DNA from: a virus
Length of the DNA: 64,000 nucleotides
Direction: 5' to 3' (one strand)
IMG/VR virus record: IMGVR_UViG_3300025073_000028
Coordinates: 61,447 to 125,446 of that record
The stretch's first letter is position 1. Each line of letters opens with the position of its first letter. Below, piece by piece: positions 9,325-28,320 of the stretch. The position numbers and the translations under genes are program-made. Under the pieces are notes generated by a model, which made no database searches, was not told the origin of the DNA, and saw only the letters and a list, made by a program, of their open reading frames with translations.

Positions 9325-9680
9325 ATGTTTAAAGTAATCAATGGCCTTACAATTGACTTCCAAAGAAGATTAATTTGGGGACCAACCCAAAAACCAATGA
9401 CTTGGTTTCAAGCCATGAACTTAGAAAAAGACGGTTGGAGATTGCCGACAAAAGATGAGTTAAGACAAGCATTTATAGATAAAGTTCCTGGATTTAAAAG
9501 TGCTCGCTTCTGGTCTTCATCTCTCTACACCTACTACCTTCAAAGCTATGTGTGGAGCGTGTCCCTCTTCTATGGCGATGCCTATTATGATATAGGTCCT
9601 CCATCTTCTACGTGCGGCGTGTGAGACCACTTGACTCTTTGATTTTAAAAGAATTTGGAATTATAATGGAAAAGTTATGA
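9325..9680 (+). pseudogene. Lcl/DUF1566-type variable protein, frameshifted copy
   Basis: Translation from the ATG at 9325 gives the family N-terminus (MFKVINGLTIDF, WGP, WRLPTKDEL) and FWSSS, then a variable segment (about 9520-9608). It stops at 9624 in a frame different from its paralogues. In the -1 frame the expected conserved ending YVRRVRPLDSLILKEF continues to a TGA at 9678-9680, which overlaps the next start (ATGA). A one-base deletion or two-base insertion in the variable segment therefore broke the frame. About half of the variable codons end in C, unlike the surrounding AT-rich sequence. The shortened protein ends at residue 99. Confidence 0.75.
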
Positions 9681-10045
9681 GTATATTCCAACAAATTGAA
9701 AATTTCGTAATCGACACCGAAAGAAAACAAATTTGGAAATTAGAGTCTATTAAAATGAGTTGGTGGACAGCCTTAAGACAAGAACAATATGAATGGACAT
9801 TACCAACAGCTAAACAACTAAAACGAATATGGGAACTTGAAGCTCCAGGATTTATCAAAGATTATTACTGGACAAATTCAGCTTACAGCATAGGTAATCA
9901 ATTTGGTGACTATGCTTGGTGTATAAGATTAACTGACGGTAATATTTATAACGAAGAAAAAGAGAGACCTCTTTTTGTATGTTATATACGACCATTCGAT
10001 TCTTACACACTGTTAGAACTTGGGTTTAATCGTGAGGAACTATGA
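9677..10045 (+). CDS. divergent Lcl/DUF1566-like protein
   Basis: The 122-residue protein has the same plan as its neighbour but is diverged: WTLPTAKQL, an aromatic YYWTNSAYS in place of FWSSS, YAWCIRL, and a closing YIRPFDSYTLLELGF. The fold is expected to be the C-type-lectin-like Lcl domain used for ligand binding. It sits between the prkA-like and yeaH-like genes, and the start couples to the frame of the disrupted copy before it. Confidence 0.65.
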   Translation: MSIFQQIENFVIDTERKQIWKLESIKMSWWTALRQEQYEWTLPTAKQLKRIWELEAPGFIKDYYWTNSAYSIGNQFGDYAWCIRLTDGNIYNEEKERPLFVCYIRPFDSYTLLELGFNREEL

Positions 10046-11244
10046 GCGATAGCATCTATGACATCTGGGATTTAAATAACCAGACTGATATGGAAGAGCG
10101 AAAACATACCGAACGTGTAAAAGAAGCGATTAAATCCGGCGCGAAAGATATTATTAACTCTGAAGATATTATTACATCTGATAGTGCTGGCAAAAAAGTT
10201 AAAGTACGTATCCCGACTATTAAACAAAGGCGTTTTATTTGGGGTACCAACAAAGATACACCACAACCAGATTATTCTGATACGAGTGGAGAAGCTTTAG
10301 GAGAAGAAGGAGATGTCCTTAAACCTGGAGACCCCTTTAGTCAAGGACAAGGTCCACAAGCAGGCAATGAACATGGAGATCCAACTTATACTGTAGAGAT
10401 TGACTTACAAGACATTATCGAAGAAATGATTCGACAGTTAGGGCTTCCTAATTTACGAGAAAAAGAGCAAAGGACAGTAGAGTCTATTGAAACAAAGTAC
10501 AACACCTATAGGCCAACTGATACAATATCAAACGCTGATATTGAAGAAACTATTTTAAGAAATATCATTCGTAATGCAGCAGAGACAGGAAAGGCATATG
10601 TAGGAGATTTTAAACAAGAAGATTTAGTAAAAATTTCTTATGAAGAAATTCCTCAATATACTACTCATGCAGCTGTCTATTTATTAATGGATGTCAGTGG
10701 TTCTATGACTGAAGAAATTCGTGTCGTTGCAAAAATGATCTTTTTCTGGATAGTCCAATTCCTCAAATATAATTATAAAAAAGTAGATATATATTTTATT
10801 GCGCACGATACTCAAGCTTGGTTTGAGGAAGAAAAGAAATTCTTTGAAGTATCTTGGGGAGGAGGAACTATTTGTTCTAGTGCTTTGAAATTAGCCGACG
10901 AACATATAGACAAACATCACCCTCCTTCAAAATGTAATAATTATATAGTACATTTAACTGACGGTGGAAATTGGGGAGACGATGATAACCGCTTATACGT
11001 TAAACTTGTGGATAAGTTATTAACTAAATGTTCTATGATTGGTTATGGAGAGATAAACCCACATCTAGGATGGGGAAATTATGGACTTCAATGGGAAGTA
11101 AGCTCAAATTCAGGGTCTGAATTATATTCCTTACTTAGAAACAAAATTACTGATGAAAAATTCCAGGCTATTTTAATTAATGGCAAGGAAGATGTAGATA
11201 AAACCTTACAGTTCTTCTTTGGGACAACGAAAAAGGAGAAATAA
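10042..11244 (+). CDS. YeaH/YhbH family protein (DUF444, VWA fold)
   Basis: The 400-residue protein has the family N-terminus with a basic stretch, a Gly/Pro-rich linker around residues 80-110, and a VWA-like domain with the metal-binding MDVSGSM (about residue 215), WGGGT, and LTDGGNWGDDDN. These are the hallmarks of YeaH/YhbH proteins, partners of PrkA. The start overlaps the upstream Lcl-like gene (ATGA), and the SpoVR gene follows with one base between them. Its role with PrkA is inferred from conserved bacterial synteny. Confidence 0.92.
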   Translation: MSDSIYDIWDLNNQTDMEERKHTERVKEAIKSGAKDIINSEDIITSDSAGKKVKVRIPTIKQRRFIWGTNKDTPQPDYSDTSGEALGEEGDVLKPGDPFSQGQGPQAGNEHGDPTYTVEIDLQDIIEEMIRQLGLPNLREKEQRTVESIETKYNTYRPTDTISNADIEETILRNIIRNAAETGKAYVGDFKQEDLVKISYEEIPQYTTHAAVYLLMDVSGSMTEEIRVVAKMIFFWIVQFLKYNYKKVDIYFIAHDTQAWFEEEKKFFEVSWGGGTICSSALKLADEHIDKHHPPSKCNNYIVHLTDGGNWGDDDNRLYVKLVDKLLTKCSMIGYGEINPHLGWGNYGLQWEVSSNSGSELYSLLRNKITDEKFQAILINGKEDVDKTLQFFFGTTKKEK

Positions 11245-11245
11245 G

Positions 11246-12742
11246 ATGCTCGTTGAAGGACACATCGACGAAGAAGTAAAAGCCATTAGTGAAATAGCAC
11301 ACGAAATGGGATTGTCTTGGGATCCTATTATTTGGGAAACAGTTCCTCCAAAATTAATGGCGATTATCGCAACCTATGGGCTACCCCTACGTATGCGTCA
11401 TTTCTCCTATGCTCCTACATGGACACAACAAAAAGCCGCTAGCGAATATGGTATGGTAGCGTTAGAAACCATTATTAATAATAACCCCACTTATGCCTTT
11501 ATGCATGCGAGTAACAATTTAGTTACTAATAAGTTAATTATTGCCCATTGCATGGGTCATGCACATGTTTTTAAAAACAATATTCAATTATCTAAAGTAC
11601 CTAAAGATATGGTACAAAGAGCTGCTGATTCTTGTTTGCGCGTAGAGCGTTATAAAGAAATGTATGGAGAGAAAGAAGTAGAAGACTTTATCACTATGGC
11701 ATTTGCTCTTGAGCGTCATTTGGATTGGTTTACATATACCCAAAAAGGCGAGAATAGACCACTATATCCCAAGAAGGAAAGGACAATTAGTTATACGGAA
11801 CCCGATATCATTGACTTATTAACACAAGAAAGCCCTCAAGTAACAAGTAAAGTCTCTTGGAATTACGAAACATTTCCTCCAAGAAAAGAACCTGATTTAT
11901 TATGGTTTCTTGCGCATTACGCACCTGATCTAGAAGAATGGCAAAAAGATGTACTCTTAACAGTGAGAGCAGAAAGTTATTATTTCTATCCTCAATTCTT
12001 AACTAAAACTATTAATGAAGGATTTGCAAGTCTTGTTCATATCGTAATTATGGAAAAGTACTTAAACGATATGGATATGGTTGATTTTGCCGCATTAAAT
12101 TCTGCTGTCATCAATCCGGGATGGGATGAAGAACACATGATTGGACGTATGGGGCATAACCCATATTATATAGGATATAAAATTCTTAGAGACATCTGGG
12201 AAAGATGGGACGACTATTATACCAATGGCCTTCCTAAAGATATGAAATTATATCCTTATCCACAAGATGACAACCAAAGGTTTCGAGACGAAGATGGAAA
12301 CATTGTTAAAGCAACTATTAAAGGATGGGATAAAGTTCTAGAAGTAGTTAAATTCGAAGACGATCCATCTTTTTATAGAACTTACTTAACTGACAAACTT
12401 ATGTACAAGTTACATTTATGTACAATGCAAAGAGATAACGAAACAGGGGAAGTTATTCTCAAGAATAGGAGTATTGAAGATTTCTGCTTTGAACAATCTG
12501 CTATGTCCTACGATTATGGTGTTCCCAGAATCACAATACAAGGAGTTGCAGATTCTGGAGCTTTAATTTTAGCTCATGAAAACCATCAAGATTTTCAAGA
12601 ATTTGGACTTGAATTAAAACTTGATGAATGTGAAGTAGTCATGAGATATATGGAAAAAATCTGGAAAAGATCAGTTATACTAGGTTCTACCATCAATGGT
12701 GAGAAAAAAGTATTAGTATGTAAAGATGGTAAAATTATTTAG
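11246..12742 (+). CDS. spoVR: SpoVR family protein
   Basis: The 498-residue product is close to the usual length. The start at 11246 follows AAGGAGA; the frame is open upstream but overlaps the yeaH-like gene. SpoVR/YcgB features are WDPIIWETV, YGLPLRMRHFSYA, PTYAFMHASNN, NKLIIAHCMGHAHVFKNN, FINEGFAS-like, and NPYYIGYKILRDIWERW. SpoVR is required for cortex formation in Bacillus and has a stress-related homologue YcgB in Enterobacteria. It completes the PrkA-YeaH-SpoVR triad. Confidence 0.92.
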   Translation: MLVEGHIDEEVKAISEIAHEMGLSWDPIIWETVPPKLMAIIATYGLPLRMRHFSYAPTWTQQKAASEYGMVALETIINNNPTYAFMHASNNLVTNKLIIAHCMGHAHVFKNNIQLSKVPKDMVQRAADSCLRVERYKEMYGEKEVEDFITMAFALERHLDWFTYTQKGENRPLYPKKERTISYTEPDIIDLLTQESPQVTSKVSWNYETFPPRKEPDLLWFLAHYAPDLEEWQKDVLLTVRAESYYFYPQFLTKTINEGFASLVHIVIMEKYLNDMDMVDFAALNSAVINPGWDEEHMIGRMGHNPYYIGYKILRDIWERWDDYYTNGLPKDMKLYPYPQDDNQRFRDEDGNIVKATIKGWDKVLEVVKFEDDPSFYRTYLTDKLMYKLHLCTMQRDNETGEVILKNRSIEDFCFEQSAMSYDYGVPRITIQGVADSGALILAHENHQDFQEFGLELKLDECEVVMRYMEKIWKRSVILGSTINGEKKVLVCKDGKII

Positions 12743-12752
12743 GAGAAAGATT

Positions 12753-13097
12753 ATGGACGTAAAGACAAAGATTGAAAGTGCTGTTACAAACTTTACACTA
12801 CGGAATATCAATAGTGGTGTGTTGGCTGGAGCAGGAATGATTACTTTCTGTGATTTAATCACAGTAAAATTCGCAATCTTTAAGAAAGATGATAAGACTT
12901 GGGTTTCCTGGCCCGTTGAAAGGGACAAGGAAGGGAATATCATGAAGGATAAATCAGGCAAATTCACCCAAGAAGGAGCTTTCCCTAAGGGTAAAGAAGA
13001 ACGCGAGGCATTAAATACTTTTATTTTAACTAAGTTTAATACTCAGCAAGAGAATACTACTCCTGCAACTACTACTTCAACTAAACCTAGGTGGTAA
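12753..13097 (+). CDS. SpoVG-like protein
   Basis: The 114-residue protein has its ATG at 12753 preceded by AGGAGAAAG; a longer frame overlaps spoVR. The pattern of strands (VTNFTLRNIN, GAGMITFCDLITVKFAIFK, WVSWPVE) followed by a linker and AFPKGKEEREALNTFIL resembles SpoVG, a small site-specific DNA/RNA-binding regulator. The Thr/Pro-rich tail is extra. The resemblance is moderate, and the position after the sporulation-type genes adds some weight. Confidence 0.5.
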   Translation: MDVKTKIESAVTNFTLRNINSGVLAGAGMITFCDLITVKFAIFKKDDKTWVSWPVERDKEGNIMKDKSGKFTQEGAFPKGKEEREALNTFILTKFNTQQENTTPATTTSTKPRW

Positions 13098-13100
13098 AAA

Positions 13101-13463
13101 ATGGCCATGGATATTACTCAATTAGTCGAAGATCTATTTGAGAAAAATCTATGGCCTATCCTAATTTGGGAGGATCAGGGAAAGCTTTGCGGATTCTTTA
13201 TAGAAGACACAAGAGCTTTTCTTGATCCTACTAAATATCCCCGCTCTGAAATATCCTATTCGCAAGATTGTAGTTTACTAGAATTAGGAAATTGGTTTAG
13301 ATTATTTCATATGAATAGGTTACAAATCCTTAATTTCCTTAAAACAGTTACCCCCTTATATACAGACGATGGATTTTCCGACCTATTTAATATCCTCAAT
13401 ACTGTCACTTCTTTAGAAGATCTTGGCAAAGAAATATGTAATTTTAGACTACGGTTATTATGA
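13101..13463 (+). CDS. hypothetical protein
   Basis: The 120-residue protein is not recognised. It has an acidic, Leu- and Trp-rich N-terminal half and a C-terminus ending in a basic FRLRLL. It is coupled to the next gene by an ATGA overlap. Confidence 0.55.
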   Translation: MAMDITQLVEDLFEKNLWPILIWEDQGKLCGFFIEDTRAFLDPTKYPRSEISYSQDCSLLELGNWFRLFHMNRLQILNFLKTVTPLYTDDGFSDLFNILNTVTSLEDLGKEICNFRLRLL

Positions 13464-13711
13464 CTATAATTGAAACAGCTAATCAAATAATAAATATTCT
13501 TAATCAATCAGCATTAAATGACAATGATCAAGCACGAGTATTGGCTCAGGTCATAGCAGCCTTAGGAGACGCAGTATCTCCAATCCAATATGGAGATAAA
13601 GTTGATCAACTAATGCTCGATCATCTTTCTCATCCTAACTTAGCTACTCTACTGTTAGTAGAAGCTTTAGACTTAATGAAGTTCATAGATAAACTTCAAA
13701 CTACAGACTAA
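13460..13711 (+). CDS. hypothetical helical protein
   Basis: The 83-residue protein of unknown family is predicted helical from its regular Leu/Ala/Ile spacing. The start overlaps the previous stop and an Lcl-type gene follows after two bases. Confidence 0.55.
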   Translation: MTIIETANQIINILNQSALNDNDQARVLAQVIAALGDAVSPIQYGDKVDQLMLDHLSHPNLATLLLVEALDLMKFIDKLQTTD

Positions 13712-13713
13712 AT

Positions 13714-14067
13714 ATGTTCAAAGAAATCAATGGCTTTACAATTGACTTCAAGAATAAATTAGTTTGGGGATTAACCCAAGAACCAAGAAGCTGGAGTAGA
13801 GCCATGAACTTAGAAAAAGACGGTTGGAGACTTCCAACAAGAGATGAATTAAAACAAGCATTTATAGATAAAGTTCCTGGATTTGCAAAAGATAGGTTCT
13901 GGTCATCGTTGTCTCTCATTAAGTATACCAACTACGCATGGTACGTGCATCTCGGCTACGGCTTCGCCGACTATGATAATAAAGCTCTCGACTATTATGT
14001 AAGATGTGTGCGGCCGCTTGACTCTTTGATTTTAAAAGAATTAAATTTTACAATGGAAATTTTATAA
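13714..14067 (+). CDS. Lcl/DUF1566-type variable protein
   Basis: The 117-residue protein has constant parts MFKEINGFTIDF, LVWGLTQEPRSW, WRLPTRDELKQAF, DKVPGF and RFWSS, then a variable segment (about 13912-13993), then YVRCVRPLDSLILKELNFTMEIL. This is the YVR-VRP ending typical of DUF1566/Lcl domains that serve as DGR targets. The 3-prime 50 bases are almost identical to the copies ending at 15260 and 24204. It is probably a ligand-binding C-type-lectin fold protein with no signal peptide; the location on the virion is unknown. Confidence 0.8.
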   Translation: MFKEINGFTIDFKNKLVWGLTQEPRSWSRAMNLEKDGWRLPTRDELKQAFIDKVPGFAKDRFWSSLSLIKYTNYAWYVHLGYGFADYDNKALDYYVRCVRPLDSLILKELNFTMEIL

Positions 14068-14075
14068 GGATTATT

Positions 14076-14588
14076 ATGGAAAAAATTATTCGACCTGCAA
14101 AATTTGAAAAATATAAGAAGACTTCATGCCTTCAATTAGAGTTATATTCACCGAAAGAAGGACCTGAATGGACAAATTCTGCTGGACAAAAATGTACAGA
14201 ATTACAGGCTGGTTCTGTAATGTTAACTATTTGCCCAATGGCAAATAATCAAATGCAACTAGAACAAATCCAACGTTTTAAGTTAGGATTTATTGATATT
14301 GAAAAAATTCTTTACTGGCTAGAAAAAACATTGCCTTATGCTTTACAAGATAATGATGAAAAAGGAAAATCAATAGCTTTGATCCATGATCCTAATGCAC
14401 AAACAGAAGCAATGGGATCTGTTATTAATCAACTAAGTGTTTTCTTTAATGGAACATCTTTTGGATTTACTCTTCGCCATAAAGAAAATGGAGAAGAGAA
14501 TGTTAGAACATTTTTTATGTCGCCTGAAGAAATGTTATCTTGTCAAATAATGCTTCGTACTGCACTTTCTAAGATTCTTGGATGGTAA
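14076..14588 (+). CDS. hypothetical protein
   Basis: The 170-residue protein is not recognised. An AAGGA box precedes the ATG. It has strand-rich N-terminal and C-terminal parts with a helix between, no Cys cluster and no membrane segment. The stop overlaps the following membrane protein gene. Confidence 0.6.
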   Translation: MEKIIRPAKFEKYKKTSCLQLELYSPKEGPEWTNSAGQKCTELQAGSVMLTICPMANNQMQLEQIQRFKLGFIDIEKILYWLEKTLPYALQDNDEKGKSIALIHDPNAQTEAMGSVINQLSVFFNGTSFGFTLRHKENGEENVRTFFMSPEEMLSCQIMLRTALSKILGW

Positions 14589-14899
14589 GTAAAAATTTAA
14601 TTGTCGTAGGTTTGATTACTTTATTTATTTTGACATTCATAATTGGCGGAATAGCCTTAACGGGTTTAATTTTAGGAGGAATAATATTTTTTGTTTTCTT
14701 AATTTTATTTAATAAACTTCCAATAAGACTTCAAAAATTTATGGTCAGACATCATATTATTACTGACGCACTTTTTAGTATATTAACTTTTTTTAGTCTA
14801 GGTGGAGGCATTCACGCTGTTGTTGCCGCTGCTTATATTGGCATTTTTATATCTTTAGCTTTATGGTTTTTACAAGACAAGATACATCTAATGCCTTAG
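14582..14899 (+). CDS. small membrane protein, about three membrane segments
   Basis: The 105-residue protein is hydrophobic throughout, with segments at about residues 5-45 (two close helices) and 60-98, rich in Ile, Leu, Phe and Gly. A holin-like or inner membrane role is possible, but there is no lysis gene next to it on this strand. Confidence 0.6.
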   Translation: MVSKNLIVVGLITLFILTFIIGGIALTGLILGGIIFFVFLILFNKLPIRLQKFMVRHHIITDALFSILTFFSLGGGIHAVVAAAYIGIFISLALWFLQDKIHLMP

Positions 14900-14906
14900 G
14901 ATAAAT

Positions 14907-15260
14907 ATGTTTAAAGAAATCAATGGCCTTACAATCGACTTTAAAAATAAATTAATTTGGGGACCAGTCCAAGGACTAATGACTTGGAATCAAGCCAAAG
15001 ACTTAGAAAAAGACAGTTGGAGACTTCCGGTAAAAGATGAGTTAAAACAAGCGTTTTTTGATAAAGTGCCTGGATTTACAGAGGATAGGTTTTGGTCGTC
15101 ATCGTCCTTTATCGACAACGCCGACCACGCATGGTACGTGGATTTCGACAACGGTTACGTTGTCGAAGGTCTTAAAACTTACAGGCTTGCAGCACGGTAT
15201 ATACGACCATTTGATTCTTTGATTTTAAAAGAATTAAATTTTACAATGGAAATTTTATGA
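14907..15260 (+). CDS. Lcl/DUF1566-type variable protein
   Basis: The 117-residue protein is a close copy of the gene at 13714 with constant N-terminus, WRLPVKDELKQAF, RFWSSSSF, a variable segment (about 15103-15190), then ARYIRPFDSLILKELNFTMEIL. In the variable segment about 13 of 21 codons end in C (for example GAC, AAC, GCC, GAC, CAC in succession), strikingly unlike the host gene's A/T-rich wobble bases. The stop overlaps the next start (ATGA). Confidence 0.8.
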   Translation: MFKEINGLTIDFKNKLIWGPVQGLMTWNQAKDLEKDSWRLPVKDELKQAFFDKVPGFTEDRFWSSSSFIDNADHAWYVDFDNGYVVEGLKTYRLAARYIRPFDSLILKELNFTMEIL

Positions 15261-15781
15261 ATCAAAAATTACTATACAAAACAGTTCTCTCAATGAGAAA
15301 AAATTTAAAAGACAAACAATGGAATCCTCATGTAGACACTATATATTACTTTAACGACATACTAGAAAGTTTAAGTTTAGTAAAAGAAGTTAATCCTTCA
15401 GAAGATATTTATATTACTACTGCTTCTATTATTGAAAACAAACCCAAGAAAATTATAGGCATTATCAATGATAATATCTACACCAATCCTCCTAGACTAA
15501 TTGAAGATGAAACTTTATTGACTGTTGATAGAACTTTAGCTTCAATTTTAGCAGCTATCCCATTTATGGAGATGAGAGAATTAATGGCCGCCAAAAAAGT
15601 ATTACATATATTTTTAGGCGAGTCGGAAACCTTATATGATTGTCTATTGGGTAAAACAAAAGACTTCGAAAGCGAGAGTCTAAAAATTATAGCTCATTTA
15701 CCTAAAGTATATATTTATAATAATAATTACGAAATGAAAGGAGAATTGATTGCTTCCTATTATTCTTTACTCAACTGCTGA
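15257..15781 (+). CDS. hypothetical protein
   Basis: The 174-residue protein is of unknown family. It has no membrane segment; a conserved-looking ITTASIIENKPKKIIG and a central acidic region are visible. The start is coupled to the Lcl gene. The downstream gene starts inside its 3-prime end. Confidence 0.55.
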   Translation: MNQKLLYKTVLSMRKNLKDKQWNPHVDTIYYFNDILESLSLVKEVNPSEDIYITTASIIENKPKKIIGIINDNIYTNPPRLIEDETLLTVDRTLASILAAIPFMEMRELMAAKKVLHIFLGESETLYDCLLGKTKDFESESLKIIAHLPKVYIYNNNYEMKGELIASYYSLLNC

Positions 15782-18571: not shown

Positions 18572-18928
18572 GTGAATCACTGTATAGGAGAAGATTTATT
18601 TATACTTAATAGACTGTTAGTATTTATTAAATATTATAAAATAGAATACAGAGAAATTGCTTGTGTAGAACATGATGCAGCAATGTGTAAATTAAGCCAA
18701 CATCCAGATTATCGACTTCCAACATTAACTGAAGTATTTGAACTTAACGATTGTCTAAACCAATACCCTGATAAACGCTTTTATAAATTTGGTGGAAGAT
18801 TTGTTTGGTGCCAAGAGGGACAAGGTCAAGTTGCTTATCATATTCATTCAGGTTCAACCCGTAATTCTTTCCCTGTTAAAGATGGAAGGGTTCTATTAGT
18901 TCGAGATCTTTATAAAGAAATTCTATAA
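18572..18928 (+). CDS. distant Lcl-like protein, GTG start
   Basis: The 118-residue protein starts with GTG behind AAGGAG. It shares only the core of the Lcl family: DYRLPTLTEVFEL, then RFVWCQEGQG and a final strand GRVLLVRDLYKEIL. It is most like the next gene. The membership is inferred from pattern and arrangement. Confidence 0.5.
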   Translation: MNHCIGEDLFILNRLLVFIKYYKIEYREIACVEHDAAMCKLSQHPDYRLPTLTEVFELNDCLNQYPDKRFYKFGGRFVWCQEGQGQVAYHIHSGSTRNSFPVKDGRVLLVRDLYKEIL

Positions 18929-18937
18929 GGATTTAAA

Positions 18938-19309
18938 ATGCAAAACTTAATCTTTTTCTCAGGTAAATATATTGCTACAGAATTTTGGGATCCGCCCATT
19001 CAAACCTTTTGGGGAGAAGAAAGGAAAGATAGAATTTGTGCGTCTAATTCAGACTTTAGATTACCTACCTTAAAAGAAATATTTGAATTACAAGAAGCAG
19101 AATACAATAATTATATTAGATTCTGTCCTTTCCTTCATGTTGGAACAAGATACCTTTGGTGTCTTGATGTTCCTTATGCTGTAGGTACTCCAGGACAAGA
19201 TAGAGACAAAATACCCTTTTCCAAATGGCTTCCTCGTGTATATCGTGTTAAGAGCGGAGGAGGTCGAATACTTTTAATTAAAGAAGCTCCAATCTTAGAT
19301 ATATTATAA
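18938..19309 (+). CDS. distant Lcl-like protein
   Basis: The 123-residue protein pairs with the preceding gene: DFRLPTLKEIFEL, RYLWCLDVPYA and GGRILLIKEAPILDIL align in order. AAGGA precedes the ATG. The two probably arose by tandem duplication and have lost the YVR-VRP ending of the close Lcl copies. Confidence 0.5.
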   Translation: MQNLIFFSGKYIATEFWDPPIQTFWGEERKDRICASNSDFRLPTLKEIFELQEAEYNNYIRFCPFLHVGTRYLWCLDVPYAVGTPGQDRDKIPFSKWLPRVYRVKSGGGRILLIKEAPILDIL

Positions 19310-19316
19310 GGATTAT

Positions 19317-20372
19317 ATGGTTAAAAAAGATACAGAAGTTGTTGAAAATTTAGACGATGAAAAGCAAAAAGAAATAGAGTTATCTCTTAAGTTAATTGCT
19401 AAACAATTTGGAGAAGGCTTAGCTTGTATTGCTTCCAACGAAGATTTAGATATATGCACTATTAAAGATTGGATACCTATGGGTCTTCCAAACTTAGATT
19501 ATAATTTGTCTAAAGGAAGGGGATTACCAAGAGGAAGGCATATAGAATTATATGGATGGGAAGCAACAGGCAAAAGTAGTCTTGCATTACATGCTTGTGC
19601 GCAAGCACAAAAACAGGGGTTATTAGTTGCATATATAGATTCTGAGCACGCACTAGAACTAGATTATGCACAGAAATTAGAAGTCGATTTGAATCGGCTT
19701 ACAATTAGTCAACCTGATTACGGTGAGCAAGCGTTAGATATTGCAGAAACTTTATGTAGAACTGGTTCTTATGGCTTAATTATTATAGATTCTGTTGCGA
19801 CTTTAATTCCTAAAGCTGAATTAGATGGGACAATGGAAGATCAACAAATGGGCCTTCAAGCTCGTATGATGTCTAAGGCTTTGCGCAAGCTTAACCCATT
19901 AGCCCAACAAGCTAATTGTACTTTTATTTGGATAAACCAATTTCGTCAGAAAATTGGAATTTCTTATGGTTCTCCAGATGTGGTATCCGGCGGAAACGCA
20001 TTAAAATTCTATGCAACTATTAGATTAGAATTACGAAAAGGAGATTGGGTGGGTCCAAAAGAAACACCAATAGGTTTTACTTGTAAAATTAAGACAGCAA
20101 AGAATAAGGTATTTACTCCATTTAGAACAGCAGAAGTAGATTTACTGTTTGGACAAGGATTTAGTCCTTGGGCTGGTACTGTAGATTTATTACGTTCTAA
20201 AGGTATCTTAGAAAATTCTGGTGCTTGGTACTATCTTAATGGGACAAAAGTAGCACAAGGCAGAAATGGAATGGCTGAATATTTAGCAACAATGCCCCCA
20301 GAAGAATTAAAACTTTTGCTAGATAGATCCTATGGGTTAACCACAATAGAGACAAAGAATGAACCAGCTTGA
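19317..20372 (+). CDS. recA: RecA/UvsX recombinase
   Basis: The 351-residue protein has Walker A GWEATGKS at 80-87, AYIDSEHALELDYAQKLEV, the Walker B LIIIDSVATLIPKAELDG, QARMMSKALRKL, and the strand WINQFRQKIGISYGSP with SGGNALKFYA. It promotes strand exchange for phage recombination and replication. It lacks the acidic C-terminal tail of E. coli RecA and ends in DRSYGL. The gene overlaps the uracil-DNA glycosylase gene by 14 bases, fitting a repair operon. Confidence 0.95.
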   Translation: MVKKDTEVVENLDDEKQKEIELSLKLIAKQFGEGLACIASNEDLDICTIKDWIPMGLPNLDYNLSKGRGLPRGRHIELYGWEATGKSSLALHACAQAQKQGLLVAYIDSEHALELDYAQKLEVDLNRLTISQPDYGEQALDIAETLCRTGSYGLIIIDSVATLIPKAELDGTMEDQQMGLQARMMSKALRKLNPLAQQANCTFIWINQFRQKIGISYGSPDVVSGGNALKFYATIRLELRKGDWVGPKETPIGFTCKIKTAKNKVFTPFRTAEVDLLFGQGFSPWAGTVDLLRSKGILENSGAWYYLNGTKVAQGRNGMAEYLATMPPEELKLLLDRSYGLTTIETKNEPA

Positions 20373-20958
20373 AACATATTGCACAGAACTTAAAGAAAAA
20401 AATTGCACCCTTTGTTCTCTAAATACTAATAATTCTAAGATAGTTGTTAATCGGGGATCTTATCTGGCCGATATTATGGTCATAGGTATGGGACCCGGAG
20501 AACAAGAACAAAAACAAGGTCTGCCATTCGTAGGACCAAGTGGTCAATTTGCAAATGAAATGTTCGAATCTATTGGGATAGATCCTCACAAAGATATATT
20601 TTGGACAAATATAGTCCTACATAGAACAATGGTCAATGGTCAATTTAAAGATCGAGATCCACGGCCAGAAGAATATGATGTGTGTAAAACACATTTAAAC
20701 AATATGATAAATTTATTAAAACCGCGTTTTATTATTACTTTTGGTAAGCCAACATATCAAGCATTAACTGATACTGTTATCCAAAATTGGGTAAAAGAAT
20801 ATTGTGGTAAGGTTAAAAAATATTTATTAGAAGGTAAAACTTATAAGGTAATGCCGTTAATGCATCCAGCATACATTTTACGTAACCCATCTATGATGGA
20901 CTTAGCAAAAGAACATGCACAGATTTTTTATAATTTTTACACAGAAAATTTAAAATGA
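20359..20958 (+). CDS. uracil-DNA glycosylase, family 4 (Fe-S)
   Basis: The 199-residue protein has the family 4 motif A GMGPGEQEQKQGLPFVGPSG and motif B HPAYIL. CTLC near the N-terminus plus CKTHL and CGKV supply the four cysteines for a 4Fe-4S cluster. It removes uracil from DNA. It is encoded directly after RecA and also fits the dUTPase found at 23393. Confidence 0.92.
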   Translation: MNQLETYCTELKEKNCTLCSLNTNNSKIVVNRGSYLADIMVIGMGPGEQEQKQGLPFVGPSGQFANEMFESIGIDPHKDIFWTNIVLHRTMVNGQFKDRDPRPEEYDVCKTHLNNMINLLKPRFIITFGKPTYQALTDTVIQNWVKEYCGKVKKYLLEGKTYKVMPLMHPAYILRNPSMMDLAKEHAQIFYNFYTENLK

Positions 20959-21257
20959 ATGAATGGATCAAAGATCCTAGGACCGGATTAAAGTGGGGAC
21001 CAATCTCTGAAAAGTCAATGTCATGGAGGAAAACTCAAATCTAGTGTGAAGAACAAAAAGGAAGATGCCCTTCTAAAGAAGAACTTATTGATTTATTTGA
21101 GAATGGACCAGAAGAAATTAAAAAGTATATAAAAAATAAATCTTTATGGTCATCTTCTAGATGTCGAATGTCAAAACAATATTATTATGTAAGGCACAAT
21201 TTTATTGGAAGTGACATCAAATATAATAGTCGTTATATCTGTTGTGTGCGACCATAA
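20955..21257 (+). pseudogene. Lcl/DUF1566-like gene interrupted by an in-frame TAG
   Basis: Reading from the ATG at 20955 (overlapping the previous stop) gives MNEWIKDPRTGLKWGPIS, then a TAG at 21042-21044 (codon 30). The same frame continues with RCPSKEELIDLF, LWSSSRC, then YICCVRP and two stop codons at 21255-21260. The post-stop part clearly has the Lcl plan (polymorphic WSSS and closing VRP), so this is one decayed gene or one needing readthrough. Confidence 0.7.
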
Positions 21258-21275
21258 TAAAAATAAGGAATTAAA

Positions 21276-21899
21276 ATGAGTCTAAAACGCCAACTACTCT
21301 ATTTTGCTAATATGTACCCTTTGGTTGCAAAAAATCACATAGAATTATTGTCTGAGTTTTACCTAGATAACTCTGGGGTGCATTATTGGTATCAAGGAGA
21401 AATGGTACAAGCAGAAGGAGATTTAGGCGTACAAGACATTTCTTTTAGTAACTTTAAAAGATTACTGCGTCGCCATGTGAAAGTCGCGCGCAGAGACTTT
21501 TTCTCATACCAGCAGCCAGACCATCTCCTTGAACCCTACGAAAGGGCGCTCCATAAGAAATGGCGCAAAGACTATTATATAGACAATGCCCTGAAGTGTC
21601 TACATAAAAAACCTTTAGTTACAAAAACCTTTCCACCGGCTCATGTGTATCTGAGATACGCAGAACGCCTCAAACTTCCTGCGGACGTCAAGCCGGATTG
21701 GCAAGCTGGGTACGAAGAACTAAAAGCTTATATCAAGTGCCAGGCATCTTTAAGTTTTGAACTCTTCTCTGCTATGGCTAAGAAAGACGACGGCTGGGAA
21801 TATTTTGCATTGTATCACGGAGAAGAAGAAGAAACCATAGAAACCGCACTAAAGAAAATCCTGAAAGAAACCCAAAAGTTAGCAGCAGTACTACTTTAA
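21276..21899 (+). CDS. hypothetical protein with atypical base composition
   Basis: The 207-residue protein is not recognised. The codons are richer in G and C than the neighbours (for example CGT CGC CAT GTG, GCG CGC AGA), suggesting a recent arrival. It is basic and aromatic in the first half and acidic helical near the end. AAGGAATTAAA precedes the ATG. Confidence 0.65.
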   Translation: MSLKRQLLYFANMYPLVAKNHIELLSEFYLDNSGVHYWYQGEMVQAEGDLGVQDISFSNFKRLLRRHVKVARRDFFSYQQPDHLLEPYERALHKKWRKDYYIDNALKCLHKKPLVTKTFPPAHVYLRYAERLKLPADVKPDWQAGYEELKAYIKCQASLSFELFSAMAKKDDGWEYFALYHGEEEETIETALKKILKETQKLAAVLL

Positions 21900-21914
21900 G
21901 TAAAAGGTATTAAA

Positions 21915-22043
21915 ATGAAAATCGATAAATTTAAAGGAAAAATTACATCAAAGGAAAATCTTGAAGAATTCACTAACCTTATTGTAGATACATTGCGTCA
22001 AATGTATATAGATAAAGGCGGAACGATTAAAGATTCTGAATAA
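21915..22043 (+). CDS. small hypothetical protein, possibly the first part of a broken gene
   Basis: The 42-residue reading from the ATG at 21915 (MKIDKFKGKITSKENL) stops at a TAA (22041-22043). The frame stays open after it for another 43 codons, so this may be the N-terminal half of a disrupted gene. A weak AAAGG box precedes it. Confidence 0.35.
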   Translation: MKIDKFKGKITSKENLEEFTNLIVDTLRQMYIDKGGTIKDSE

Positions 22044-22175
22044 GTGTGTATAACCATCGAATGTTATTCAGGAACAGTATATATATACCCGGTAAATCAA
22101 ATTAGTAAAGAATTACTATTAGAGTTAAGCGAAAAAGAAAAACTCGAAGTAAAAAAGGATATATGGGAAGTTTAA
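22044..22175 (+). CDS. small hypothetical reading frame after an in-frame stop
   Basis: A 43-residue frame begins with GTG directly after the TAA at 22041 and ends overlapping the nucleotidyltransferase start by 13 bases. No ribosome binding site is obvious, so it may be translated only by reinitiation or may be the remnant of the gene beginning at 21915. Confidence 0.25.
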   Translation: MCITIECYSGTVYIYPVNQISKELLLELSEKEKLEVKKDIWEV

Positions 22176-23044
22176 TATCTAAATTACAATCTAAACAACT
22201 TATTAATTGCCCATATGGTATAGATAAGTCTGTTCAATATGAAGTTATTATGGGCTCAACTGCATATGGAGCAAGCAGCAATACTTCGGATATTGATATA
22301 TATGGCTTTGCTCTGCCTTCTCGTACTATGATATTCCCTCATGAAGCTGGAGAAATACAAGGGTTCGGAACACAATCTCTGCGATTTCAAAATTTTCAAC
22401 AGCATCATATCAAGGATCAAGATAAGGAGTATGATATTGATATCTATAATATCGTTCGTTATTTTGATTTATGTATGAATTGTAACCCTAATATGATAGA
22501 TTCATTATTTGTTCCTGAAAGATGTATTATTCATATAACACCAGTAGGACAAAGAGTGCGAGAGAATAGAAAACTATTCTTATCTAAAAAAGCATGGCAT
22601 ACCTTTAAGGGTTATGCCTATTCTCGGCTACATAAAATCAAAACAAAAAATCCTGAAGGAAATAGAGCTGAACTTATCAGTCAATATGGTTGGGATATAA
22701 AGTTTGGTTATCATGTAGTAAGACTATTAAATGAAGTTGAACAAATTTTATCAGAGCATGACATAGATTTAGAAAGAAATAGAGAACAACTTAAGGCTAT
22801 ACGAAGAGGAGAATGGACTTTAGAATATCTAGAAAATTGGTTCGCAGATAAAGAAAAATCTCTTGAAAAAATATACTTAGAAAGTACTCTCCAATATAGT
22901 CCTAATGAATCTAAAATAAAAGATTTACTATTAGAATGTTTAGAAATGTATTTTGGAAATTTATCTATAAAGAGAGAGGAAACTTCTATCAAAGAAGAAC
23001 TCTCGAAAATATATTTAACAATAGGGAACCTGTTAAATGTTTAA
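22163..23044 (+). CDS. nucleotidyltransferase, RlaP/PF10127-like
   Basis: The 293-residue protein has the polymerase-beta-type active site MGSTAYGASSNTSDIDIYG (about residues 30-48) with a third acidic site in EYDIDIYNIVRYFDL. The rest is helical with NPNMIDSLFVP. The pattern fits the RlaP family of predicted nucleotidyltransferases, found in RNA repair clusters and many large phages. The substrate is unknown. AAAAGGAT lies before the ATG at 22163. It overlaps the next Lcl gene. Confidence 0.8.
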   Translation: MGSLISKLQSKQLINCPYGIDKSVQYEVIMGSTAYGASSNTSDIDIYGFALPSRTMIFPHEAGEIQGFGTQSLRFQNFQQHHIKDQDKEYDIDIYNIVRYFDLCMNCNPNMIDSLFVPERCIIHITPVGQRVRENRKLFLSKKAWHTFKGYAYSRLHKIKTKNPEGNRAELISQYGWDIKFGYHVVRLLNEVEQILSEHDIDLERNREQLKAIRRGEWTLEYLENWFADKEKSLEKIYLESTLQYSPNESKIKDLLLECLEMYFGNLSIKREETSIKEELSKIYLTIGNLLNV

Positions 23045-23396
23045 AAAAATCAATGGTTATACAATTGACTTTAATAGAAGATTAATTTGGGGACCAGTTC
23101 AAGGATCAATGAATTGGGATAAAGCCAAGGTCTTAGAAAAAGACGGTTGGAGACTTCCGACAAGTGAAGAATTAAAACAAGCATTTATTGACGAAGTTCT
23201 TGGATTTACAAAGAGTTGGTTCTGGTCTTCGACACCTTATGAGAATTTCACTGACTATGTATGGACTGTAAATTTCGGTTTTGGCATACCTTATTACACC
23301 TATAAAGATGACTATTGTCTTACACGTTATGTGCAACCATTAAACTCCTCAATTTTAGAAGTGCTTGGAGTTATAAAAAACTTAGAGGTATTATGA
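23037..23396 (+). CDS. Lcl/DUF1566-type variable protein
   Basis: The 119-residue protein has the constant N-terminus MFKKINGYTIDF, WGPVQGSMNW, WRLPTSEELKQAF and WFWSSTPY, a variable segment (about 23232-23325), then RYVQPLNSSILEVLG. Its 5-prime end overlaps the nucleotidyltransferase stop and its 3-prime end overlaps the dUTPase start. It ends differently from the other close copies. Confidence 0.8.
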   Translation: MFKKINGYTIDFNRRLIWGPVQGSMNWDKAKVLEKDGWRLPTSEELKQAFIDEVLGFTKSWFWSSTPYENFTDYVWTVNFGFGIPYYTYKDDYCLTRYVQPLNSSILEVLGVIKNLEVL

Positions 23397-23848
23397 CAGA
23401 ATATATATTTGAATTAAAAGTAGCAGAAGATAGATTATATCCTACAGAAAAAATGCCCCATTATGCGACAACAGGTTCTGCAGCTTTTGATATTATTCTT
23501 GCCCCAATAGAATGGGAAGAATGTCTTTCTCAATTGTTAATCAAACCTAAAGAAATAGTCATGCTGCAAACCGGATTGTTTATCAAAAAAATGTCATCTA
23601 ATATGTTTTTAGATGTTCGTTTGCGTAGTTCAATAGCTAAACAAGGGTTAGTCTTTGTTGGAAGTGGTGTTATAGATAGTGATTATAGAGATGAAATCTT
23701 AATCCCAGTTTATAACCCAACAGAAGAAACAATTTTTTTGAATATATTTGATCGTATTGCGCAAGGTATTTTGATCCCAATCGTAAGAACAGGTTTGGAG
23801 ATTAAACAAGAAATACGTAAAGGTGGGTTTGGTTCAACAGGAAAATAA
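23393..23848 (+). CDS. dut: dUTPase
   Basis: The 151-residue protein has the dUTPase motifs in order: GSAAFDI, RLRSSIAKQG, GSGVIDSDYRDEI, FDRIAQGIL, and the C-terminal GGFGSTGK arm. The start at 23393 is preferred over the longer frame because it overlaps the previous stop (ATGA) and follows GAGGT. It hydrolyses dUTP to dUMP, supplying ThyX and keeping uracil out of DNA. Confidence 0.95.
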   Translation: MTEYIFELKVAEDRLYPTEKMPHYATTGSAAFDIILAPIEWEECLSQLLIKPKEIVMLQTGLFIKKMSSNMFLDVRLRSSIAKQGLVFVGSGVIDSDYRDEILIPVYNPTEETIFLNIFDRIAQGILIPIVRTGLEIKQEIRKGGFGSTGK

Positions 23849-23850
23849 AT

Positions 23851-24204
23851 ATGTTTAAAGTAATCAATGGTCTTACAATCGATTTCAAGAATAAATTAGT
23901 TTGGGGATTAACCCAAGAACCAAGAAGCTGGAATAAAGCCAAAGACTTAGAAAAAGACAGTTGGAGACTTCCAACAATTGATGAATTAAAACAAGCATGT
24001 ATAGATAAAGTTCCTGGATTTATATCACATTACTTTTGGTCGTCATCTCCCTACTTTAATTATACTGGTTATTCACGGGTTATACTTTTCTATAGTGGCT
24101 ATACCGACTACGAGGATGAATGTTTTACCTACTATGTACGATATGTAAAACCACTTGATTCTTTGATTTTAAAAGAATTAAATTTTACAATAGAAATTTT
24201 ATAA
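23851..24204 (+). CDS. Lcl/DUF1566-type variable protein
   Basis: The 117-residue protein shares most of the sequence LVWGLTQEPRSWN with the gene at 13714 and the LDSLILKELNFT ending with two others. The variable segment (about 24046-24140) lies between YFWSSSPY and YVRYVKP. The Trp usual in the YxW position is Arg here (codon CGG). It sits between dut and the ribonucleotide reductase. Confidence 0.8.
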   Translation: MFKVINGLTIDFKNKLVWGLTQEPRSWNKAKDLEKDSWRLPTIDELKQACIDKVPGFISHYFWSSSPYFNYTGYSRVILFYSGYTDYEDECFTYYVRYVKPLDSLILKELNFTIEIL

Positions 24205-24212
24205 GAGTAATT

Positions 24213-26456
24213 ATGAATAAAATTTTAAATCAAATCATTAAAAGAAACGGGACAACAGTCTCTTTCGATGAAGAAAAATTAGAAAAAGCAATAAAAAATG
24301 CCTTAGCTATTGAAGAACAAGGATTATATAACGATGTTCTAAATAAAATTTCACATTTTTTTGAACTAAAATTAAGTGAAAACCTAGAATACATTCCTCA
24401 TGTAGAAGAGTTACAAGATGTTGTAGAATATGTATTCTTAACTCTACAAATGCACAAGACTGCTAAGAACTTTATTCTTTATAGAGAGGAAAGAAAAAAG
24501 AATAAAAAGTATGCTCCTTCTCAAGAATATAGAGATTTAGTAATTCGAAATAAACAATATTTTGATCACGACTTACGTCGAGAATTTGTTTATGCAAGAA
24601 CATATGCTCGTTGGCTTCCACAACATAATAGAAGAGAAGTATACGAAGAGACTGTAGATCGTAGCGTTAATTATATGAGACGTCAGTTAGGAGGTCTTTT
24701 AGACGAGCCTACTTACAACACAATTAGAGAATCAGTACTAGAACAAAAAGCAATGTTCTCTATGAGGCATTTTCAGCTAGCCGGACTCCCAATAGATAGA
24801 ACTAATATCTGTGCATATAACTGTTCCTATCTCACTCCCAATGAGCTACAACGCTTCGGAGAGGCCATGAACTTACTCATGCTTGGAGTAGGAGTAGGGT
24901 TCTCCGTTGAGAATAGTATTATTCATGATCTTCCAAAAATTAAATATCAAAAGCGAGTAGATCCAGAAGTAATTATAGTTGAAGATTCAAGAGAAGGTTG
25001 GGTCAAAAGTTTTAATTATATATTAGAGTTATTATATAATGGACAAAATTTTGTTTTAGACACATCTCAAATTCGTCCAGTAGGAACTCCCTTAAAGACA
25101 ATGGGTGGTCGTGCTTCTGGAGATCGTCCTTTTATAGACTTAGTAAATTTTGCGCGCAATAGAATTTTGGCCAATCAAGGATCAAGATTAAAGAGTATAG
25201 ACATACATGATATTCTCTGTAAAATTGGACAATGTACCGAAGCGGGTTCAACACGAAGAAGTGCTTTAATTTCCATTTCTGAACTAGACGATATACATAT
25301 GCGGCTAGCTAAAGCAGGCGATTGGCTGTCTACAAACAAACAGAGAATGTGGGCAAATAATTCTGTAGCTTACCCGGTATTTGATAAGCCAAGCGAAGCT
25401 GTCTTTATGGAAGAATGGTTAAACTTAGTTAAAAGTGGGTCGGGAGAGAGGGGAATTATCAACCGCTATTCCTTTAGAAAAACTTTACCTCCTAGAAGAA
25501 TTAAATTATTGGGTAAAAGAATTAATAGTCTAGGGGTAAACCCTTGTGGGGAAATAGTATTGCAATCTAATAGTTTATGTAATTTAAGCGAGATTGTAGT
25601 TCGTTTTGATGATACTCTAGAAAACTTATTGCATAAAATAGATGTTGCTACTTTAATTGGGACATATCAATCTACATTGACTTATTTTCCAGATATGTCA
25701 CCCGAATGGGAACAAAATTGTAAAGAAGAAAGACTTCTAGGAGTTTCTATCACTGGGCAATGGGATTGTCCTATGGTAAGAAACCCAGAAGTTCTAAGGA
25801 TTTTGCGCGACAGAACTATAGAAGTTAATACTTACTACGCGAAACAATTTAACATTAATCCTGCTTCTGCTATTACAGCCATTAAACCGTCGGGCACTTT
25901 ATCTAAAGTAGTAGGTGCTTCCGAAGGGATGCACACACATTATGCACCTTACTATATTAATAGAATTCAAATTTCTAATACCGATCCAATGCTCAAACTA
26001 TTAAAAGATCAAAACGTTCCATGTTATCAATATGACGAAACGATATGGTCAGTAGAATTCCCGGTTAGGGCTCCTGAAGGAGCCGAAGTATTTTCTAATA
26101 CTTTGTCAGCTATTGAGCAATTAGAATATTGGAAGATGGTTAAAATTAATTACTGTGAGCATAATCCAAGTTGCACCATATATGTAGGAGAAGGTGAATG
26201 GTTGTTGGTTGCTGCTTGGGTTTATGAAAATTGGGATATAGTTGGCGGATTATCTTTCTTTCCTAAAGAAGATGGCGACAATATATATCGCTTAGCTCCA
26301 AAAGAAAGGATTAGTAAAGAGGAATACGAAAAGCGTGTTTCAGTCCTTAAAAATATAGATTTTTCAAAACTAACTTACTATGAGGTCATAGATTCGACGG
26401 ATCAATTAGCCACAGCAGCTTGCTCGGGAGGCACCTGTAGTTTAAAAAGGAACTAA
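24213..26456 (+). CDS. class II (adenosylcobalamin-dependent) ribonucleoside-triphosphate reductase
   Basis: The 747-residue protein begins with an ATP-cone-like region (IKRNGTTVSFDEEKL) and continues with the RtpR-type core: NICAYNCSYL, GVGVGFSVEN, NPCGEI with Cys445, GVSITGQWD, AIKPSGTLSKVVGASEGMHTHYAPYY, and the C-terminal redox pair in CSGGTC. It resembles the monomeric Lactobacillus-type enzyme, which reduces NTPs using vitamin B12, rather than NrdJ dimers. An ATP-cone at this position would give dATP feedback. It provides dNTPs for an AT-rich genome. Confidence 0.93.
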   Translation: MNKILNQIIKRNGTTVSFDEEKLEKAIKNALAIEEQGLYNDVLNKISHFFELKLSENLEYIPHVEELQDVVEYVFLTLQMHKTAKNFILYREERKKNKKYAPSQEYRDLVIRNKQYFDHDLRREFVYARTYARWLPQHNRREVYEETVDRSVNYMRRQLGGLLDEPTYNTIRESVLEQKAMFSMRHFQLAGLPIDRTNICAYNCSYLTPNELQRFGEAMNLLMLGVGVGFSVENSIIHDLPKIKYQKRVDPEVIIVEDSREGWVKSFNYILELLYNGQNFVLDTSQIRPVGTPLKTMGGRASGDRPFIDLVNFARNRILANQGSRLKSIDIHDILCKIGQCTEAGSTRRSALISISELDDIHMRLAKAGDWLSTNKQRMWANNSVAYPVFDKPSEAVFMEEWLNLVKSGSGERGIINRYSFRKTLPPRRIKLLGKRINSLGVNPCGEIVLQSNSLCNLSEIVVRFDDTLENLLHKIDVATLIGTYQSTLTYFPDMSPEWEQNCKEERLLGVSITGQWDCPMVRNPEVLRILRDRTIEVNTYYAKQFNINPASAITAIKPSGTLSKVVGASEGMHTHYAPYYINRIQISNTDPMLKLLKDQNVPCYQYDETIWSVEFPVRAPEGAEVFSNTLSAIEQLEYWKMVKINYCEHNPSCTIYVGEGEWLLVAAWVYENWDIVGGLSFFPKEDGDNIYRLAPKERISKEEYEKRVSVLKNIDFSKLTYYEVIDSTDQLATAACSGGTCSLKRN

Positions 26457-26821
26457 TGTTATATATAAAGAAAGATCCAGTTCTCTTAACAACATTTCCT
26501 TCAGATCGTGGAGATTTATATGAATTTCGATTTTTACCAGATATAACAAATATTAAACCTCAAGCTAATATGGTTCTTTTCTGTAAAAATACAGAGCGTA
26601 CTTATTATTTAATAAAAATTATAGAGACGACAGATATATCTGTAAGGTATATGTATCAACTTTTGGAAACAAATAGAAACCAAATTTCTCTCCAGTCTAT
26701 AATAGACACAAAATTTGGAGTTAATATTTGTGGTAGTTATGATCCTAAAAATAGTTTAGGGCTTCTTTTTTCTTCCTCCTGTTATTTATATCCATTTTTA
26801 TCAAATATAGAAAAGCTATGA
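26456..26821 (+). CDS. hypothetical protein, tandem family member 1
   Basis: The 121-residue protein is of unknown family. The plan is a basic N-terminus (YIKKDPV), FRFLPDITNIKPQANMVLF, a strand YYLIKIIETTD and a C-terminal SLIDT-like segment. It matches the two genes that follow in outline. The start overlaps the reductase stop (TAATG). Confidence 0.55.
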   Translation: MLYIKKDPVLLTTFPSDRGDLYEFRFLPDITNIKPQANMVLFCKNTERTYYLIKIIETTDISVRYMYQLLETNRNQISLQSIIDTKFGVNICGSYDPKNSLGLLFSSSCYLYPFLSNIEKL

Positions 26822-27195
26822 TATATTTCAGAAGAAATCCGTTACGAATATACAAAAGAAAGATAAATGCAGACTGTATACCTATAACGACTCTTCCTGT
26901 TGTTAATAATCTAAAACTTATGACAGGTATGTTGCTTTTAATTGATTATATTGACCCATCTGTAAGAAGGGTAACATATATCACTAAAATTCATACAATA
27001 TATACCTGTGGAATGGAAACATGGGAAACTTGTCTACGACATGAAAGACATACTGATGTAAGTAAAATGTGTCTTGGCCATATGTTTTATCAATATAATT
27101 CAAATATGACAATGACAGAAATATTTTCTTGTGGAATAGCAAGTTTAAGAAATGTGAATGTCTATCTACTTAATGAATCACAGGAAGAATTATGA
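26818..27195 (+). CDS. hypothetical protein, tandem family member 2
   Basis: The 125-residue protein MIYFRRNPLRIYK with CIPITTLPVVNNLKLMTGMLLL aligns with the next gene over most of its length. Unlike the Lcl copies, these genes show gradual divergence. The function is unknown. It is coupled by ATGA to both neighbours. Confidence 0.6.
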   Translation: MIYFRRNPLRIYKRKINADCIPITTLPVVNNLKLMTGMLLLIDYIDPSVRRVTYITKIHTIYTCGMETWETCLRHERHTDVSKMCLGHMFYQYNSNMTMTEIFSCGIASLRNVNVYLLNESQEEL

Positions 27196-27584
27196 TTTAT
27201 TTTAAAAGAAATCCATTAAGGATATCAAGGAAAAAAGATAAAGACTGTATATCTATAACAGACCTTCCAATGGTTAATAATCTAGAACCACAAAAAGGGA
27301 TGATTCTCCTTTATCTTATACAACACCTAAAGTTTGTAGAACAATATTTTATAAAAATTACAGATATATTAAATACTAAAAACTATATAGGGACTCTAGA
27401 GTCATTCGAAATAGGTCATACTGAAAAAAAAGAGATAGACGAAATGTGTATTCTTGAAAATTCTTATTATTTTTCTCCAAATATGACATTATTAGATATT
27501 TTTTTAGAGGAAGAAGACTACCCTGCAGAGCAGATGACTCTTTATTTATTAAATGGTATAAACTCTAACGGACAACAACTATGA
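27192..27584 (+). CDS. hypothetical protein, tandem family member 3
   Basis: The 130-residue protein begins MIYFKRNPLRISRKK and continues DCISITDLPMVNNLEPQKGMILL, clearly paralogous to the previous gene, ending MTLYLLNG like NVYLLNE there. The function is unknown. The stop overlaps the next start (ATGA). Confidence 0.6.
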   Translation: MIYFKRNPLRISRKKDKDCISITDLPMVNNLEPQKGMILLYLIQHLKFVEQYFIKITDILNTKNYIGTLESFEIGHTEKKEIDEMCILENSYYFSPNMTLLDIFLEEEDYPAEQMTLYLLNGINSNGQQL

Positions 27585-27955
27585 AAATTTTAGTTTATGA
27601 TGATAACGATGAAATGGTTAACAACTACAAAAAAGTATTACCTTTTGATTGGATAAAATCTTATAAAACCGTTGAAGGGATATTAGATGAAATATATCTA
27701 AACGGGGATACTTATAAATATATATTCCTTAGTTTTATAAAACATGAAAAACTAAAAGGTTTAATACAAGTTGCACAAGCTATTAAAGATATAAAGTTTA
27801 AAGGTAAAGTATATTATTATAATGCTTCTTCTTCTTATATAAGTAAATTAGAAAAAATTATTAGTGGATTAAGATATGTCCCCGTCTCTGGCATTTTACA
27901 AGAAATGACAGGTCTTATCGATAAGAGAAGAAGACATCATAATCAGGACAAATAA
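27581..27955 (+). CDS. receiver-like protein, probably degenerate
   Basis: The 124-residue protein starts MKILVYDDNDEMVNNY, like the acidic pocket strand of response regulator receiver domains, and has a late lysine (KVYYYNASSS) like the K-containing loop. The phosphoacceptor Asp expected at about residue 52 is not visible (IFLSFIK). It may be a pseudo-receiver. The fold is inferred. Confidence 0.4.
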   Translation: MKILVYDDNDEMVNNYKKVLPFDWIKSYKTVEGILDEIYLNGDTYKYIFLSFIKHEKLKGLIQVAQAIKDIKFKGKVYYYNASSSYISKLEKIISGLRYVPVSGILQEMTGLIDKRRRHHNQDK

Positions 27956-27957
27956 AT

Positions 27958-28320
27958 ATGTTTAAAGTAATCAATGGCCTTACAATTGACTTCCAAAGAA
28001 GATTAATTTGGGGACCAACCCAAAAACCAATGACTTGGTTTCAAGCCAAAGACTTAGAAAAAGACAACTGGAGACTTCCAACAAGTGAAGAGCTACAACA
28101 AGCGTTTTTTGATAAAGTTTGGGGATTTACAGAGAGTTGGTTCTGGTCTTCGACACCTCATCCCAATCACAATATCGATTACATTGAACTTGTAAGCCTT
28201 GAATGTGGAGATCTTGGTTGCGATTCTAAAGATATATACACCTATTATGTACGGTATGTACAACCTTTTGATTTCGAAACATTAAAAAATCTTTTTAATA
28301 TAAACACGGAGATACTATGA
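27958..28320 (+). CDS. Lcl/DUF1566-type variable protein
   Basis: The 120-residue protein shares an identical first stretch of about 90 bases with the copy at 9325, then WRLPTSEELQQAF, WFWSSTPH, a variable segment (about 28155-28245) with no Trp in the usual place, and YVRYVQPFDFETL. Its end is unlike the shared LDSLILKEL ending. It overlaps the next start (ATGA). Confidence 0.8.
   Translation: MFKVINGLTIDFQRRLIWGPTQKPMTWFQAKDLEKDNWRLPTSEELQQAFFDKVWGFTESWFWSSTPHPNHNIDYIELVSLECGDLGCDSKDIYTYYVRYVQPFDFETLKNLFNINTEIL

Follow-up and report, generated by a model that had tools for sequence, protein, structure and literature searches.

Phage DGRs act chiefly on tail receptor-binding proteins, and work on phages with two DGR targets describes the data on multi-target phages as limited (PMC10743442). 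DGRs that reach remote targets in trans inside their own genome are known from Thiohalocapsa PB-PSB1 (PMC10907252) and from the remote variable proteins of cyanobacteria (PMC7517822). A compact arrangement is found in the Lcl_C/DUF1566 DGR of the virus record IMGVR_UViG_3300049911_000188 (L074:11711-13914), where the template, a DGR reverse transcriptase (RT; motifs IGNLTSQ and YVDD) and an Avd-like gene lie in one 2-kb cassette. Its Lcl_C-like target has the 3′ variable segment AWYVYFSHGGVDYGGKGYSSYVRPVR, and its template reads AWYVNFNNGNVNNDNKDNNNYVRPVR. Another DUF1566-type DGR with a readable template lies at about 650-800 of locus L094, where the template extends over the YWSGTTYADNTDNAW part.

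The phage described here resembles these systems in its targets and differs from them in its machinery. It shares with the Thiohalocapsa and cyanobacterial genomes (PMC10907252, PMC7517822) several dispersed C-type lectin targets and one template, with the two-target phages (PMC10743442) the diversification of more than one gene per phage, and with L074 an Lcl_C-like target, the template of L074 aligning codon by codon with the phage segments. However, the Thiohalocapsa and cyanobacterial systems have their machinery in the same genome, the two-target phages have cassettes with an RT, and L074 keeps everything together. This phage has targets alone, as stand-alone domains of 100-135 aa among replication and accessory genes. 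On balance, we lean toward reading its approximately 20 Lcl_C genes as orphan targets on which a DGR of the host or of a co-resident element acts in trans.

The analyzed window is a stretch of 64,000 nucleotides, positions 61447-125446 of the 125,446-bp virus record IMGVR_UViG_3300025073_000028 (G000). The initial annotation of this DNA had reported six close Lcl/DUF1566 copies whose ends are constant and which vary in a stretch following FWSS. All six open reading frames were found where reported, all six show this architecture, and all six are hit by the Pfam Lcl_C model, with four scores exceeding the curated cut-off. The list was nonetheless incomplete, as the window also holds a divergent copy directly behind the first and a pseudogene (Table 1). 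The pseudogene sits between a UDG-like gene and the following ORF. A Pfam Lcl_C search of the 125-kb record matched 18 places, with extra copies beyond the window at G000 37-56 kb. The phage total is about 20 small lectin-like genes, about a dozen of them outside the window. We found no relatives of these genes in IMG/VR beyond this phage, and none in deposited phages. Two adjacent ORFs at window 18572-19309 recall Lcl in their RLPT...EL motif and in a W/VLLV pattern late in the sequence, and are possibly remote Lcl paralogues; Pfam Lcl_C does not match them.

Table 1. Lcl_C copies and the retron-like neighbor in the analyzed window (window coordinates)
Feature	Position	Strand	Remarks
Putative retron msr-msd-like RNA	6240..6521	+	Precedes the RT; strong fold of three hairpins followed by one long hairpin with paired arms CTATAAGTAATCTAA/TTAGATTACTTATAG
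Retron-like RT, the only RT in the genome	6560..7309	+	LPQGSPASP; YVDN in place of retron YADD
Lcl_C copy 1	9325..9624	+	Variable segment starts at 9508; a 1-nt deletion within it leads out of frame to an early stop
Divergent Lcl_C copy, immediately following copy 1	9677..10045	+	Pfam Lcl_C E = 5e-5; phmmer 2e-18 to the 14907 copy
Lcl_C copy	13714..14067	+	Segment ~13897-14019; template signature partly kept, with differences from the L074 template at 13/26 A and 10/40 non-A sites
Lcl_C copy	14907..15260	+	Segment ~15090-15212; template signature partly kept, with differences from the L074 template at 15/26 A and 14/40 non-A sites
Dead Lcl copy, long-family type	20957..21258	+	In-frame TAG; sequence read, blastn match at the corresponding place
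Lcl_C copy, drifted segment	23037..23396	+	21/40 non-A sites differ from the L074 template
Lcl_C copy, drifted segment	23851..24204	+	21/40 non-A sites differ from the L074 template
Lcl_C copy, drifted segment	27958..28320	+	22/40 non-A sites differ from the L074 template

The initial annotation had also seen the footprint of adenine-specific retrohoming in the six window copies. This holds for the gene family, by virtue of four copies outside the window; the six window copies taken alone show no restriction to adenines. The four outside copies, which we term fresh, have their FWSS at G000 37867, 44208, 44989 and 46650, and their segment codons are mainly NNC or NNT. Codon positions 1, 2 and 3 are variable at 17, 17 and 3 of 29 (Fisher p = 2e-5). 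The gene bodies of these copies are 15-51% identical. Between segments, positions 1 and 2 differ at about 26-33% of sites, and third positions agree at 33/38 to 39/39; one pair with bodies only 18% identical agrees at 39 of 39. Ordinary duplication followed by selection would not hold silent sites constant in the very stretch where unrelated genes vary most.

A single inferred template accounts for the fresh segments, with 20/20, 22/24, 20/24 and 22/28 of the differences being adenine changes, a count that is partly circular. In the 46650 segment, 0 of the 20 differences fall at non-adenine sites. A non-circular test scored the segment columns against the template of the intact DUF1566 DGR in the other virus (L074). 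In the fresh copies, 19 of 26 A columns were variable and 6 of 52 other columns (p = 8e-8). All four fresh segments start at TTCTGG, adjoining unrelated gene bodies, which makes these genes mosaics. At the 3′ edge they have GCGCGTTGTGTGCGGCCGTGATC in common, a candidate GC-rich initiation-of-homing element. Taken together, a template common to these segments, their identical left edge and the unchanging silent sites point to homing of adenine-mutagenized cDNA.

Differences confined to template adenines were found in the four fresh copies only. Against the L074 template, the five in-frame window copies varied in 25 of 26 A columns and 40 of 52 others (p = 0.05), a link that is borderline because nearly all columns vary. 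Their third positions vary in 27 of 30 columns, as often as the other positions. Of the 40 non-A sites, the fresh copies differ at 6-9, the 13714 and 14907 copies at 10 and 14, and the copies at 23037, 23851 and 27958 at 21-22, making the window copies the older members of the family. Codon composition gives a similarly divided result. With a baseline of 12.8% C-ending codons from seven large window genes, and segments scored over their first 32 codons, the enrichment in C-ending codons described in the initial annotation is clear at 9325 (13/32), 13714 (15/32) and 14907 (14/32; binomial p 8e-5 to 2e-6), the three window copies that retain part of the footprint. It is weak or absent at 23037, 23851 and 27958 (8, 8 and 7 of 32; p 0.04-0.1).

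A gradation of this kind, with some segments almost clean and others heavily drifted (6/40 to 32/40 non-A differences across the family), is also what one would see had the phage lost a DGR of its own, with template and RT deleted and the segments left as frozen relics that now drift. The frameshifted copies (9325 and, outside the window, G000 44989), the pseudogene and a genome that lacks the machinery fit this history as well. We nevertheless consider it unlikely. The best segments are almost clean at non-A sites (0 of the 20 differences in 46650), so the loss would have to be very recent, and a segment GC content of 54-56% in a phage of 36% GC is at least equally suggestive of a foreign template. 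Only two records of this phage are available, and as they do not differ over 125,318 bases, they reveal no ongoing change.

The second record, IMGVR_UViG_3300025117_000028 (G001; 190,284 bp), is completely identical to G000 across these 125,318 bases and adds 65 kb. G000 opens with 127 bases that match bases 1-127 of G001 in reverse complement; one extra base follows, and then G001 continues from its opposite end. The bases either side of the extra A read GAATAAGGA-A-TATTATGGCAG. Read around the circle, the junction becomes ...GAATAAGGA-A-TATTATGGCAGAT..., the ribosome-binding site and ATG start codon of the gene starting there. It is directly preceded by terminase, portal and major head protein genes and directly followed by a tail sheath gene. 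We therefore treat the two records together as a complete circular phage genome of about 190,285 bp, a closure based on 128 bases of a single contig.

Neither a template nor a DGR-type RT is present in this genome. The initial annotation had suggested seeking a template whose A positions line up with the variable sites; none was found in the 190 kb, where the inferred template matched only the variable segments themselves (best 84%) and other places at chance level. The 190 kb contain a single RT, which is retron-like, and an identical search detected the DGR RT of a control virus. With a profile of 44 DGR RTs, control RTs scored E = 6e-161 and 3e-106, and the RT of this phage E = 1.7. The weak matches that rank above this RT in the phage are Lcl frames, in our reading because several of the RT frames used for the profile extend into template sequence. 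No Avd gene (PF05635) was found in G001; the control virus gave E = 8.5e-5. The joint absence of template and DGR-type RT, which the initial annotation had regarded as fatal to its proposal, speaks against a resident, self-contained DGR, but the footprint survives it.

A cis-acting DGR might instead reside in sequence absent from both assemblies, since metagenome assemblies may collapse or skip regions and both records come without a completeness estimate. This is quite improbable, however, as G000 bridges the ends of G001 with one extra base and thereby produces an ordinary start of a gene where head genes give way to tail genes. That the genome closes without template or RT favors action in trans, and the source of the diversity is probably a retroelement elsewhere, such as one of the host.

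The single RT of the genome, absent from the initial annotation, is a 249-aa protein encoded at window 6560-7306, about 2 kb upstream of the first Lcl copy. It falls in the retron clade by its matches to PADLOC types II-A and III-A (both ~94 bits; RT_II-A 2e-27) and to NCBIfam St85 (96 bits, 2e-27, below cut-off), and its best PDB match is retron Ec86. In its alignment, YVDN replaces the catalytic YADD of retrons, and it has LPQGSPASP and no DGR GxxxSQ motif. The region 6240-6560 folds far more stably than shuffled sequences (z = -9.4); a Rfam search of the upstream RNA segment returned no family, and nothing in this RNA resembles the variable segments. The RNA and the RT together look like a retron. 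They share with Retron St85 and the type II-A and III-A RTs the best profile matches (94-96 bits) and a structured RNA upstream, and differ in the score below the curated cut-off, YVDN for YADD, and the lack of an identified effector or a close relative. Exact peptide patterns retrieved RT relatives from IMG/VR and GTDB in this phage only; plasmid relatives are at most about 30% identical and mostly annotated as retron or RT. A structure prediction of the RT alone reached a pLDDT of 34.5 and was left unused. The RT gene overlaps the start of a PrkA gene.

As the only RT in the genome, close to the first copy and with a structured RNA alongside, this enzyme could in principle diversify the lectin genes by a new mechanism. 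We hold this to be extremely improbable. The RT groups with retrons, has the YVDN active site and lacks the DGR SQ motif, and its RNA is unlike the segments; clade, motif and the absence of a matching template led us to reject it as the diversifying enzyme. Distance is the sole link between the RT and the lectin genes.

The phage encodes a RecA (window 19317-20369), and already diversified segments could have been captured by homologous recombination, possibly via this protein, from DGR targets of the host or of other phages. An unrelated 131-kb virus (G003) lends this some plausibility, as its segment DNA is 73-82% identical to that of the phage and the two have otherwise almost nothing in common (one 52-bp match). 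The shared start point of the four fresh segments beside unrelated bodies is homing-like, however, and random recombination would leave scattered edges. Capture is thus a rather improbable source. The same unrelated virus holds four Lcl genes with fresh NNC segments (L087:1-5000) on a contig without an RT. We did not accept it as a second orphan case, because its segments are all less than 5 kb from where the contig stops, so that the machinery could sit immediately outside the assembled sequence.

Returning to diversification in trans, DGR cDNA would be copied with random changes at the adenines of one shared template, and the mutagenized cDNA would overwrite the 3′ ends of several Lcl_C genes by mutagenic retrohoming. 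Template and DGR RT would most likely act from the host chromosome or from a co-resident element, and the donor would carry AAYTTCAACWACGGCNACGTCNNCWACGACAATAAG-like DNA beside an IGNxxSQ RT. Under this reading homing would still be under way, and the copies that it no longer reaches, most window copies among them, would have drifted or turned into pseudogenes. In the search for a donor, exact-match scans of IMG/VR for the shared 3′ motif returned only this phage and one chance match, and other exact template patterns only other DGRs or chance matches; one strict pattern, requiring exact matches, gave 0 hits in 84,980 GTDB genomes. More tentatively, we suggest that the phage keeps a dispersed lectin-fold repertoire without DGR machinery and that a retroelement of the host or of a co-infecting phage diversifies it in trans.

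The Legionella Lcl C-terminal domain belongs to a larger bacterial protein, whereas the Lcl proteins of this phage are free-standing domains of about 100-135 aa. The two share a Pfam domain name and a predicted fold. The AlphaFold2 model of the 13714 product has a pLDDT of 92.6, and Foldseek matched it to C-type lectin folds, among them the C-terminal domain of Legionella Lcl (PDB 8q4e). The Lcl genes show the form expected of a DGR target, a predicted C-type lectin fold with a variable segment near the 3′ end of the gene. The Lcl genes lie among RecA, RNR, UDG-like, dUTPase-like and PrkA-type genes, with starts and stops that overlap or nearly do so (the UDG-like and dUTPase-like labels were read from sequence). 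They are not obviously tail fibers. From the predicted fold and the DGR footprint, we infer that they may serve as variable binders.

Two further features of this region deserve mention. Genes for a PrkA kinase, DUF444 and SpoVR stand in one row at window 7295-12742, with Lcl copies in between; PrkA is also found in phiYS40-type Thermus phages and in uncultured phages of ~600 kb. At window 3790-6241, three adjoining genes resemble a ubiquitin-type cassette: one for a prokaryotic E2 of family D, one with a weak match to JAB peptidases, and one for a ThiF/E1 of the PRTRC type.

DGR action in trans inside one genome is already known (PMC10907252, PMC7517822). Our searches of the open-licence literature returned no account of a phage being targeted by a host DGR. 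If our reading is true, and a complete phage genome has about 20 targets but lacks the machinery, DGR activity would cross from one genome to another, and a virus would exploit the hypermutation system of another genome. Surveys of RT neighborhoods overlook remote targets, a limit acknowledged in PMC8144416, and surveys centered on the vicinity of the RT would overlook targets such as these. It would also mean that small free lectin domains, besides tail fibers, are worth diversifying for a phage.
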